DNA from: Candidatus Gottesmanbacteria bacterium RIFCSPLOWO2_01_FULL_39_12b
GTDB taxonomy: Bacteria > Patescibacteriota > Microgenomatia > 2-02-FULL-39-11
Direction of reading: 5' to 3'
Assembly (NCBI GenBank): GCA_001780955.1
Contig: MFJR01000005.1
Span: 135-33,639, forward strand
DNA length: 33,505 nt
Under the pieces are notes generated by a model. The model worked only from the letters and a program-made list of their open reading frames with translations, did no database searches and was not told the origin of the DNA. Both the position numbers and the translations under genes were made by a program. Below, piece by piece: positions 1,203 to 3,690 of the stretch; position 1 is the first letter of the stretch; every line of letters begins with the position of its first letter.

Positions 1203-1243
1203 TTTTAAAAATGGATGTAAAACTTTACCAGGTTTTACACCAT
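1203..1243 (-). terminator. Probable intrinsic terminator of the candidate RNA
   Basis: On the minus strand ATGG and TGTAAAAC (1243-1232) pair with GTTTTACA and CCAT (1223-1211) around an 8-nt loop, with one bulged base, followed directly by a run of five T. The stem is AT-rich, as expected in this genome. Confidence 0.5.
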
Positions 1244-1475
1244 AGATGAGAGTATTTCTAAACTTTCAGTTTAGAAACTCTCATCGATATAGAGATAATT
1301 TTTTCTATCCCACAAATCTTTCGATTTAGAGGATAGTCTATCCCACTCATCTTACCGTTCGGCTTTTCAGTACTATTCGTACACGCCTCACGGAGCGATG
1401 TTAGCGGGATAGTCCACTGTAGTTCTAAACTAAAGTTTAGAAACAGTGTCCTACCTTCTCGTTTGTTAAAGAGCT
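1203..1475 (-). ncRNA. Candidate structured non-coding RNA downstream of a boxA-like element
   Basis: Reading the minus strand 5' to 3' from the boxA-like site (1475-1461), the sequence folds into successive helices. P1 (1448-1415) pairs CACTGT and TTCTAAACT with their complements. P2 is long-range, CTATCCC (1412-1406) with GGGATAG (1344-1338), plus CATC/GATG inside. P3 (1336-1305) is CTATCC..GGATAG with an inner AAATC-GAAA-GATTT GNRA tetraloop. P4 (1285-1245) is a long hairpin reusing the TTCTAAACT core of P1. A terminator-like hairpin ends the series (1243-1211). The GAAA loop exists only on the minus strand. A 103-codon minus-strand frame crosses this region, but its reading through hairpins and repeats argues against protein. 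Identity unknown; it does not match an RNA family I recognise. Confidence 0.4.
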
Positions 1476-1694: not shown

Positions 1695-2009
1695 ATGAGA
1701 TTTTTTAAATATACCGTTGTTTTTACTCCTGAATCTGACGAACCGGACGTTTATAACGTTTCAGTTCCTGCTTTTCCGGAAATATGCACTTTCGGCACCT
1801 CTTACGAGGAGGCAAAATTCATGGCTCAGGATGCTCTTGAACTGGTAATCTTATCACGTCTTGAGGACGGGGAAGAAATCTCTTCTGATAAAAAACCAAA
1901 AAAGATGCCAATAAATGCGAAAGTAGAAGAGATTTTTATTTCCGTTAGTCATCAAGTTACAGCATCACCAGCTAAACATGTCAAAACTGCCATCTTTCAA
2001 AGCGCGTGA
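1695..2009 (+). CDS. hicB: HicB family antitoxin
   Basis: 104 aa from ATG 1695. The N-terminus (FFKYTVVFTPESDEPDVYNV) and the middle (SVPAFPEICTFGTSYEEAKF) are the typical partial RNase-H-like HicB fold, with the GxxxEEA helix at ~36-48. HicB binds and masks the HicA ribonuclease. The C-terminal part after ~80 is short and does not show a clear helix-turn-helix or ribbon-helix-helix, so autoregulation by direct DNA binding is uncertain. The gene overlaps hicA by 32 nt, which gives translational coupling. An upstream in-frame ATG at 1677 is disfavoured because it lies before the -10 box. Confidence 0.85.
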   Translation: MRFFKYTVVFTPESDEPDVYNVSVPAFPEICTFGTSYEEAKFMAQDALELVILSRLEDGEEISSDKKPKKMPINAKVEEIFISVSHQVTASPAKHVKTAIFQSA

Positions 2010-2190
2010 AATACTTGAAATTCTTTTTTCTAATGGTTTTGAAAAAGTAAGAATTTCAGGAAGTCATATCAGACTTCGCAAAGGTAGTGTATACGTTACT
2101 GTTCCTTTTCATACAAAAGATTTACCAACTGGTACTTTAAGAAATATAATACGCCAATCACAGCTACCAATTGATTCGTTCAAAAAATAA
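1978..2190 (+). CDS. hicA: HicA family mRNA interferase toxin
   Basis: 70 aa with the complete HicA double-stranded-RNA-binding-like fold: KAREILEILFSNGFEKVRIS, then the catalytic GSH motif (His30), then TVPFHTKDLPTGTLRNIIRQ at ~41-60. Known HicA toxins cleave mRNA during translation and are held inactive by HicB. All key parts are intact, so the module looks functional. The antitoxin-first order with overlap is less common than hicA-hicB but known. It sits between structured repeat copies A and B, like a self-contained cassette. Confidence 0.9.
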   Translation: MSKLPSFKAREILEILFSNGFEKVRISGSHIRLRKGSVYVTVPFHTKDLPTGTLRNIIRQSQLPIDSFKK

Positions 2191-2358
2191 CCTCTCGTTT
2201 GTTAAAGAGCTTGTCCCGATTTGATCGGGACGGTTGTGAGTTGTTGGTTGTAGCTGTGAGTGCAAAAAGTACCCACAACCCATAACTCATAACACACAAC
2301 TATTTTCAATCCTTCAAGATTTTGTAATCGCAAATGATTACTGATCTTTTCGGATAGA
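2191..2358 (-). repeat. Structured repeat unit, copy B, with boxA-like element
   Basis: Same order as copy A on the minus strand: hairpin core (2350-2316) with GTAATC/GATTAC pairing, a palindrome insertion (2232-2300), a TCCCGAT/ATCGGGA hairpin (2214-2230) and AGCTCTTTAACAAAC (2211-2197). Relative to copy A the inner stems differ in both partners (AACC/GGTT against AATC/GATT; CCCGAC/GTCGGG against CCCGAT/ATCGGG), that is, paired changes that keep the helices. It starts one base after the hicA stop. Confidence 0.6.
2232..2300. repeat. GTTGTGAG-type imperfect palindrome, inserted in repeat copy B
   Basis: Arms GTTGTGAGTTGTTGGTTGT and ...ACCCACAACCCATAACTCA with a short loop, closely similar to 1494-1560 in sequence and in its junctions: AGCTT plus a hairpin on one side, CTATTTTCAATCC on the other. 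Confidence 0.6.
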
Positions 2359-2471
2359 CCTAAGTCTTCCACCTACGCATAAAGCTTCGGCGAGATAAAT
2401 TAAACTCAGGATAAAAATCACTCATCGCGATCTTTACTCTGGGTTTAAAAGATCAAAAAATCAATTTATGA

Positions 2472-2500
2472 TTGACAATCATTTACTAAGTGAATATGAT
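2472..2500 (+). promoter_or_regulatory. Sigma70-type promoter for a leaderless 60-aa ORF
   Basis: TTGACA (2472-2477), a 17-nt spacer and TATGAT (2495-2500); the ATG at 2509 is 8 nt beyond. Near-consensus, and the same geometry as the promoter at 987-1015. Confidence 0.7.
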
Positions 2501-2508
2501 AGCTTTGT

Positions 2509-2691
2509 ATGATTACCAAAAAAGATATTTCAGAAACTATTCGAGCAGAACTCAATCCTGTCAAACAAGATATTGCAAAAATAAGAAAAGACGTCAGTAT
2601 GATCGTCGGATACTTTGACAAAGAATATCTCGATCTACGAAAACGTGTCGAATACATCGAAAAACATCTTGGTATCACAATTCCTTCTTAA
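2509..2691 (+). CDS. 60-aa coiled-coil-like small protein
   Basis: Starts MITKKDISETIRAELNPVKQ. Residues ~5-35 and ~40-55 are charged, heptad-like helices (IAKIRKDVSMIVGYF; RKRVEYIEKHLGI). There is no signal peptide. It has a strong dedicated promoter and shares its N-terminus with the 49-aa protein at 1022. Small proteins of this look recur in CPR genomes, from general knowledge, and have no assigned role. It lies between structured repeat copies B and C. Confidence 0.6.
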   Translation: MITKKDISETIRAELNPVKQDIAKIRKDVSMIVGYFDKEYLDLRKRVEYIEKHLGITIPS

Positions 2692-2737
2692 TGATCATCT
2701 TCAACCAAACTCAGATATAAGCGATATATAGAGAAAT

Positions 2738-2812
2738 ATTTCTCGTTTTTTAAAGAGCTTTCAAACCTTCAAGATTTCATAGCCGCATTTGACTACTAAT
2801 CTCTTTCGATTG
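2738..2812 (-). repeat. Structured repeat unit, copy C (short form without the palindrome)
   Basis: On the minus strand: hairpin core (AGATT...AATCT, loop TTGACTA/TAGCC region, 2803-2771), TTGAAGGTTTG, then AGCTCTTTAAAAAAC (2759-2745). The palindrome and the CCCGAC-type hairpin of copies A and B are absent, so C shows the unit before insertion. A perfect palindrome, GAGAAATATTTCTC (2731-2744), abuts it, and a GTGCGAGA/TCTCGCAC hairpin (2837-2863) lies on the other side. Confidence 0.55.
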
Positions 2813-2886
2813 ACCCGGGTTTGAACCCAGGATTAAGTGCGAGAGGAGAGATTCTTCTCGCACCTAACTCTAAGTTCAAACTCCCA

Positions 2887-2945
2887 ACAAAAACCTCCTG
2901 CTTCTCTTAGTAGAGTCGTCAGGAGGATAATTTGTTATCCTGCTG
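2887..2945 (-). terminator. Terminator with a competing upstream hairpin
   Basis: On the minus strand CCTCCTG (2926-2920) pairs with CAGGAGG (2900-2894), with an inner CTCT/AGAG stem, then TTTTTGT. It follows the stop of the DUF11 gene (2983). The same CCTCCTG can instead pair upstream: CAGCAGGATAA (2945-2935) with TTATCCTCCTG (2930-2920), 10 of 11 pairs. The two hairpins exclude each other, as in attenuators. Confidence 0.6.
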
Positions 2946-2982
2946 GCTCTCTCTACCAGAGGAAAAAAATAATTTTCAATTT

Positions 2983-3690
2983 TTAATTTCCGATTTTCAA
3001 AGAAGCTGTAGCTTTTTTACGAAGGTATAATCCAATGGTCAAAGCGGTACCTATACCTACAAGAGACAATATCCAATGTTCCGGTCCTGCTTTGGGCACT
3101 TGGGGTACCACCAGTTCTTTTTCGATACAAAACTGGCTTTCGTCATGGTCAGTTTGACCGTTACTGGCTCTGGAATCGACGATATTGACCGGTTGAGGAT
3201 TACCGGCTATAGGACAAATGACGTTTCTGTCAGCCGGAAGAAGTGAAGGATGGACAATTCTCCCTCTTAATTGAAAGAGTTGTGAACTGCCCCCTGTCAG
3301 GTTTGAGACTGTCCAGGTAAGGGTACGGGTGGTACTGTTATAATTGCCTGTAGCTCCAGTCAAAGACATATAGTCCATGTATTGGGGTAAAGTATCGGCG
3401 ACAGTAACCGTATCAAGCGTTTCATCGCCCGGATTTTTGACCACAATATTAAAGGTAATAATCCATTCGGGACGATATCTGGGGTCATTGGGACCGAGAT
3501 TGTCAACGTATACTCCGGTTGAGGGATTGCGGACGGTTTTGTCTATGAGAACCTGTCCGGGTCTGGGACACTGTACACCGCCGCCATAGACAGGGACGCA
3601 TCCACCACTTGCAGAAACATAAGAGATATTTGTTACTAAGGTTAAAACGACAGCAGTCAAAAAAAAGACTGCCCCGCTAATAATTTTCAT
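2983..3690 (-). CDS. Secreted DUF11 repeat protein with sortase-like sorting tail
   Basis: 235 aa. Signal peptide at ~1-28 (hydrophobic FFLTAVVLTLVT, then SYVSASGG). Residues ~74-145 form a DUF11/CARDB-like beta domain (ITFNIVVKNPGDETLDTVTV; ADTLPQYMDY), typical of bacterial surface proteins. The C-terminus has VPKAGPE (198-204), a hydrophobic span (~205-223) and RKK, a variant of the LPxTG-type sorting signal as in the PKTGPE tails common in CPR surface proteins. Unusually, nine residues follow RKK. Expected at the cell surface, single domain, perhaps a subunit of an S-layer or adhesion structure. No sortase is in the window. It is transcribed alone from a consensus promoter at 3737-3765. 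Confidence 0.8.
   Translation of the reverse strand: MKIISGAVFFLTAVVLTLVTNISYVSASGGCVPVYGGGVQCPRPGQVLIDKTVRNPSTGVYVDNLGPNDPRYRPEWIITFNIVVKNPGDETLDTVTVADTLPQYMDYMSLTGATGNYNSTTRTLTWTVSNLTGGSSQLFQLRGRIVHPSLLPADRNVICPIAGNPQPVNIVDSRASNGQTDHDESQFCIEKELVVPQVPKAGPEHWILSLVGIGTALTIGLYLRKKATASLKIGN

Follow-up and report, generated by a model that had tools for sequence, protein, structure and literature searches.

The locus and its fold

The window, i.e., the whole stretch of 33,505 nt analysed here (Candidatus Gottesmanbacteria bacterium RIFCSPLOWO2_01_FULL_39_12b, contig MFJR01000005.1), carries in its first 3 kb hicBA, a 60-aa ORF and three copies of a hairpin repeat containing a boxA-like string. 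The feature under study (positions 1203-1475) lies at the end of one of these copies, in the order hairpin A, hairpin B, shortened B and A-like hairpin (Table 1). The shortened B (mini-B) may derive from B by internal deletion, as judged from a tandem array in locus L339 and a short B in L064, while the A-like hairpin is probably related to hairpin A on account of a 29-nt, 93% match to the A hairpin that adjoins a B copy in L256.

The helices and motifs listed on the minus strand by a previous, sequence-only reading are indeed present, and these 273 nt fold at -100.7 kcal/mol (z = -9.28 versus 200 dinucleotide shuffles). The plus strand of the same stretch is as extreme (z = -9.27, dinucleotide shuffles), so that folding energy alone cannot designate a strand. 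Rfam 15 gave no family above the gathering threshold in the window or in locus L024, a permissive Rfam search of positions 900-2900 returned weak, irrelevant matches only, and no tRNA or tmRNA was matched in the window. The terminator proposed at the end of the structure is present, with stem and T-run, but it is a weak one: its stem has 10 pairs, of which only 3 are G-C, and two such sites were found against 1.1 expected by chance.

Table 1. Features in and beside positions 1203-1475 of the window
Feature	Position	Strand	Basis
GCTCTTTAACAA, boxA-like	1474-1463	minus	
BoxA-like terminus (AAGCTCTTTAACAAACGAGAAGGTA) of another hairpin repeat, abutted by A/B	1452-1476	minus	24 nt matched exactly at the corresponding place next to the element in L038
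Copy 1 of the boxA-associated hairpin repeat (model R3)	1564-1627	minus	
Hairpin A, variable stem-loop just upstream of B, apparently moving with B	1415-1448	minus	fold; A and B copied jointly in L289/L290
Long-range helix, i.e., the helix of hairpin B, two pairs longer	1412-1338	minus	
Hairpin B (71 nt), the element's conserved core, with helices P1-P5 and core CGTGTACGAATAGTACTGAAAAG	1340-1410	minus	matches to covariance models R1/R2
Mini-B: closing stem ATCCTC...GTGGGAT, GAAA-capped core replacing the conserved core	1305-1336	minus	sequence
A-like hairpin (GATGAGAGTTTCTAAACTGAAAGTTTAGAAATACTCTCATC)	1245-1285	minus	
Weak terminator-like stem and T-run, outside the conserved element	stem 1241-1214, tail to ~1204	minus	

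Distribution and covariation of hairpin B

A second locus was found by BLAST in the same genome (G000:C7:336267-336337), with 23 identical core bases and compensatorily altered flanking stems; between this copy and hairpin B of the window, 7 of 21 pairs are changed on both sides and 42/42 cells pair. The first covariance model, made from two own-genome sequences, detected the element in 14 of the 15 genomes of the family, with up to 10 copies each. The second, made from 29 copies, detected it in 156 of 374 genomes and 132 of 279 genera of the class (Microgenomates); carriers hold 1-16 copies of B, the maximum of 16 being reached in one genome, and high values in the 374-genome search are to be read as at least 13. 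In a sample of the phylum, B was present in 13/380 genomes, 11 of which belong to the same class. Two genomes outside the class, G471 with five copies of B and G580 with one, may reflect transfer or misbinning. Named records with the element comprise Gottesman-, Levy-, Roizman-, Woese-, Curtiss-, Shapiro-, Davies- and Collierbacteria, all of them Microgenomates, the class to which nearly all named contigs belong; one confirmed copy lies in a record labelled Parcubacteria, and a pattern match in a Hydrogenedentota-labelled record received no confirmation from the model. A viral origin was discarded, the core pattern occurring in none of 2.9 million viral contigs.

Among 74 copies from named contigs, standard pairs make up 95% of the pair cells, and 379 cells show double changes, versus 101 in shuffles and 17-36 when slid. 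Homologues with compensatory changes, whose absence would have told against the sequence-only reading, do exist, both as covariance-model matches and in this covariation. The feature is thus a real, previously uncatalogued two-hairpin element, no description of which was found in Rfam or in the literature searched, Microgenomates hairpin repeats included.

Anatomy of the element

The element measures ~105-125 nt and consists of A and B. B is an irregular hairpin in which P1 ([AG][TC]CC[GT]CC) is followed by loops, CGCTC, P3/P4, CGTNTNCGAATAGNANTGAAAAG around P5, TAAG and P1'. The A hairpins, located directly 5' of B, are of unrelated sequence, and a hairpin of -5 kcal/mol or lower abuts the A side in 86/148 copies versus 7/148 on the other side. 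Two near-identical A+B units are found in G272 (L289/L290), on the same contig at 47.7 kb and 450 kb, with unrelated flanks; they differ at two positions in the A region, are identical in B, and their identity extends from TGTCAAG to GGCGGGAAG, ending abruptly on both sides. Such joint copying implies that A and B travel together. The tandem array in L339 reads A-B-A-B-A-miniB, with a period of 123. An inverted pair in G362:C33 (L341), apparently an assembly palindrome, was left out of the evidence.

The sequence-only reading had taken everything from boxA to terminator as a single RNA unit. The conserved unit is reduced to hairpins A and B, as copies elsewhere lack the upstream boxA, the GAAA hairpin and the terminator, and the boxA-like string taken as the start of the structure is part of another repeat, the hairpin of which is also found where B is absent.

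Insertion sites

On its A side, the element sits tight against functional boundaries: stop codons, antisense -35 boxes, antisense Shine-Dalgarno sequences, terminator T-runs and tRNA or rRNA ends. Sorting 222 copies by simple patterns placed 57 at an antisense Shine-Dalgarno sequence, 29 at a terminator T-run, 27 at an antisense -35 box and 10 at a stop codon, the other 99 being left as 'other', with tRNA and rRNA ends among these unclassified copies. No uniform target duplication was found, with an excess only of 4-mers and 6-mers. Copies adjoin or lie inside rpoD, gyrB, rplL, rpsI, secA, tRNA, 16S, 23S and RNase P genes, and face either way relative to the neighbouring gene; gene names (rpoD, gyrB, rplL, rpsI, L33, secA, atpE and others) are those we take to apply from family knowledge of the protein sequences. 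Helix P3 of RNase P RNA is occupied by B in two genomes, in opposite orientations. Other copies immediately precede the Shine-Dalgarno sequence of atpE, HU, glnA, ilvC and others, or lie between promoter or terminator and gene at argG, cysK, DAHP synthase and hisG, and in 16S leaders a true boxA stands just downstream of B (L069, L083), where a link with Nus-factor leaders is conceivable. A lysozyme-like gene shows the same placement in two families (L047, L292; 40% identity), and such placement, common to orthologues of different families, hints at a function or a hotspot.

Several loci deserve mention for their arrangement. The 16S leader of L069 (120-461) begins with a promoter-like sequence and a terminator-like hairpin, after which come A+B, boxA, a processing stem and 16S, so that B stands between a leader terminator and boxA. 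In L154 (328-595), B comes directly after, or seemingly inside, a cobalamin-riboswitch sequence matched by Rfam, and likewise in L160 (6957-7026), there by eye only. In L132 (118-1915), two copies facing outward enclose a ribosomal operon whose last gene is rplL; the first copy is at an antisense -35 box, the other at the rplL stop codon.

Duplicated gene ends

Ten genes have the coding sequence for their C-terminus on either side of an element inserted at the 3' end. Nine of them have their last 6-20 codons twice, in frame before the element and again after it; these copies score 6-20, while shuffled left-right pairings reach 3 at most (bar one true pair drawn by chance), and tandem gene ends as mere noise were ruled out on that basis. 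Codon differences in these nine ends are 57 synonymous versus 2 non-synonymous, and the tenth case, a gyrB-like end in L301, follows the same pattern. For rpoD, a match was obtained in 14 family genomes, and the insertion is present in G013 alone, where the end occurs three times. Across the family, the C-terminus of rpoD hardly varies while its codons are saturated, and the end copies differ in 15/20 codons and in no residue. Duplicated ends, together with this single occupied rpoD, show insertion; they also show that one of the two ends has evolved either in a different lineage or under prolonged selection.

In L054 (~1340-1600), three rpoD C-terminal coding ends follow one another (20, 20 and ~11-13 residues), with B and a short GC-rich hairpin as spacers, an arrangement that suggests two insertions at a single site.

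Probable mobility and possible routes

We consider it probable, with some reserve, that the feature is one copy of a non-autonomous mobile A+B hairpin element, which would take the form of folded single-stranded DNA and be moved in trans. B indeed looks mobile in view of the L289/L290 pair, the tandem array, the two orientations in RNase P, the one rpoD occupied out of 14 and the gene-end duplicates. Mechanistically, folded single-stranded DNA would be the moving form, and an enzyme of the host or of a mobile element would recognise the conserved loops of B; the unit would then settle with its A side close against a functional boundary. At coding ends, the insert or an accompanying exchange would bring its own in-frame last codons, and the host gene would stay working, with its native end left on the far side of the element.

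As regards a partner, no mobilising gene was found, presence of Y1/RAYT being only weakly associated with the element (odds 3.1). RAYT was rejected as a required partner, being neither sufficient nor necessary: 36/156 carrier genomes have no Y1_Tnp match, and B is near 0/30 RAYT loci.

Another route to the same mobility would be hitch-hiking through homologous exchange or integrase action, B marking the outer edge of transferred conserved gene ends; the duplicate ends would then have arisen when a donor-type gene end was brought in, either by homologous recombination on one side or by a tyrosine recombinase. tRNA genes, rRNA genes and conserved 3' ends are typical integrase targets, and the sites of the element match them. 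Exchange would also account for the conserved gene on the A side, and the gene-end copies differ about as orthologues of different genera do, as seen above in rpoD. However, no larger cargo-bearing version was found, no further gene-end copy was seen beyond ~150 nt downstream in the loci examined, and there is little homology to be had at -35 boxes or Shine-Dalgarno sequences. Such exchange, whether homologous or of the integrase type, could be the route actually taken at conserved gene ends, though we hold this to be rather unlikely.

The mobile reading could be carried further, to a protein-less homing element in which A+B DNA would carry the recoded end of an essential gene and be moved in trans by a hitherto undescribed B-specific recombinase, the variable A recognising conserved functional boundaries and thereby making insertions harmless; we regard so specific a scheme as unlikely.

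Single-stranded DNA or RNA

In the pair cells of B, G-U amounts to 2.5% and A-C to 1.5%, versus 6.1% G-U in tRNA helices of the same loci, this comparison relying on one control (tRNA) and on a model-based alignment. Since the pairs are almost purely Watson-Crick and G-U is scarce, the pairing is suggestive of a single-stranded DNA hairpin.

A cis-acting RNA would be the other way to explain such a conserved structure, A+B serving, once transcribed, to stabilise the 5' or 3' end or to exert leader control in strongly expressed genes. This would fit the copies just upstream of Shine-Dalgarno sequences, the lysozyme-like gene arranged alike in two families, and the order terminator-A-B-gene seen before argG, cysK, DAHP synthase, hisG and 16S (in the last case before boxA). 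Orientation to the gene is nevertheless opposite between the Shine-Dalgarno and leader classes, and A-C is nearly as common as G-U. Moreover, the antisense class does not show the switch to an A-C excess predicted if the other strand were the functional RNA, the G-U/A-C asymmetry per class designates no clear RNA strand, and insertion is shown by gene-end duplications and empty sites. A role of this kind is, in our opinion, improbable. The occurrence of copies in either orientation to the neighbouring gene, and in both within RNase P RNA, together with the scarce G-U, agrees better with a DNA hairpin than with a dedicated transcript of the kind initially put forward.

A strand bias against GC skew (76/108) was dropped as proof of single-stranded transposition because it is mostly explained by gene orientation (Shine-Dalgarno class, once split by class).

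Comparison with known systems

Like REP/BIME palindromes, which are mobilised by RAYT (Y1) transposases, the A+B element consists of short intergenic imperfect hairpins in many copies, non-coding and probably acting at the DNA level; it differs from them by a larger two-hairpin unit, long conserved loops, the absence of RAYT linkage and the many carriers devoid of RAYT. IS200/IS605 elements and their palindrome-only derivatives, for which single-stranded DNA hairpins are described (PMC6006769), share with it hairpins near the ends, a short adjoining motif in some classes and no clear target duplication. At the ends of the A+B element, an AAG-type motif (CAAG, GAAG) is found on both sides in some classes, and other motifs in other classes. 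It differs from IS200/IS605 in having no tnpA/tnpB, no fixed target motif, and a second in-frame gene end alongside.

Small mobile sequences, such as bacterial MITEs and Rickettsia palindromic elements, are, like A+B, ~100-150 bp long, non-coding, foldable and found in both protein and structured-RNA genes (PMC2229807, PMC10969869). Rickettsia palindromic elements add residues inside the protein, whereas A+B is placed at gene ends, next to another version of the end that is likewise in frame: its coding copies abut stop codons and the original C-terminus is kept, with no residue-adding insertion inside their reading frames. A+B also differs from MITEs and Rickettsia palindromic elements in its conserved internal loops and its near restriction to Microgenomates.

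If the single-stranded form is as proposed, integron attC sites would be similar in being folded single-stranded DNA with a structure conserved beyond sequence. The attC R boxes RYYYAAC/GTTRRRY are absent from the foot of B, which reads [AG][TC]CC..CC / GG..GG[AG][TC] in the alignment, and no integrase or cassette array was seen beside the copies. With regard to group II intron domain V, B was unmatched by Rfam intron models in 20 loci, the one D1-D4 match, in L138, lying ~1.1 kb off. At that locus (1850-3030), an insertion close to the 3' end of the 16S rRNA gene holds an intron-like match (RF01998) together with an ORF, YLVGLVDGEGCFSV, resembling a LAGLIDADG endonuclease.

Small mobile palindromic sequences are known as a kind; new here are the two-hairpin anatomy with conserved loops, the placement at boundaries and the duplicated, recoded gene ends. 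Microgenomates genomes are reduced (here ~0.5-1.7 Mb), and the element is present in ~40% of the class genomes sampled. If mobile, it would show how a non-coding element survives in compact genomes by sparing essential gene ends, and a new recombinase specific for the hairpin should be encoded in some of the carriers; if regulatory instead, it would represent a new class of leader or stabiliser RNA. The covariance model makes both readings testable.

The boxA-associated repeat and neighbouring modules

The boxA-like string also occurs at 2188-2212 and 2736-2760, each time at the end of a longer repeat. Outside the window, this hairpin repeat has one copy in G005 and weak matches in two more genomes of the family, G014 and G008; covariation among its four sequences is not significant. 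In one of these two genomes (L360), its hairpin is again followed by GCTCTTTAAAA. A 16-mer of the string in C14, outside any rRNA context, was set aside as a chance match. Two modules of the window, hicBA and the 60-aa ORF, are additional relative to G005, and each is followed by one repeat copy.

That the string opens a long untranslated structured RNA under Nus-factor antitermination, ending at 1203, is very improbable: GCTCTTTAACAA is kept along with its repeat in L038 and is similar to the boxA that precedes 16S in L069, but the conserved element includes neither boxA nor mini-B nor terminator, this last being weak, and most other copies have no upstream boxA. Antitermination is therefore not a property of the A+B element and, for the boxA-like repeat, is an unproven idea.

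The repeat copies (1452-1627, 2188-2367 and 2736-2822) alternate with hicBA and the 60-aa ORF like the modules of a cassette array, and in G005 (L038) a single copy lies between a DUF11 gene and the element. At 456-905, a gene for a 23S rRNA intervening-sequence protein (PF05635) lies between GTTGTGAGTTGTGGGTT-type inverted repeats, and the same palindrome, without the gene, is inserted in a MITE-like manner in copies 1 and 2 of the boxA-associated repeat (~1490-1565 and 2230-2304).
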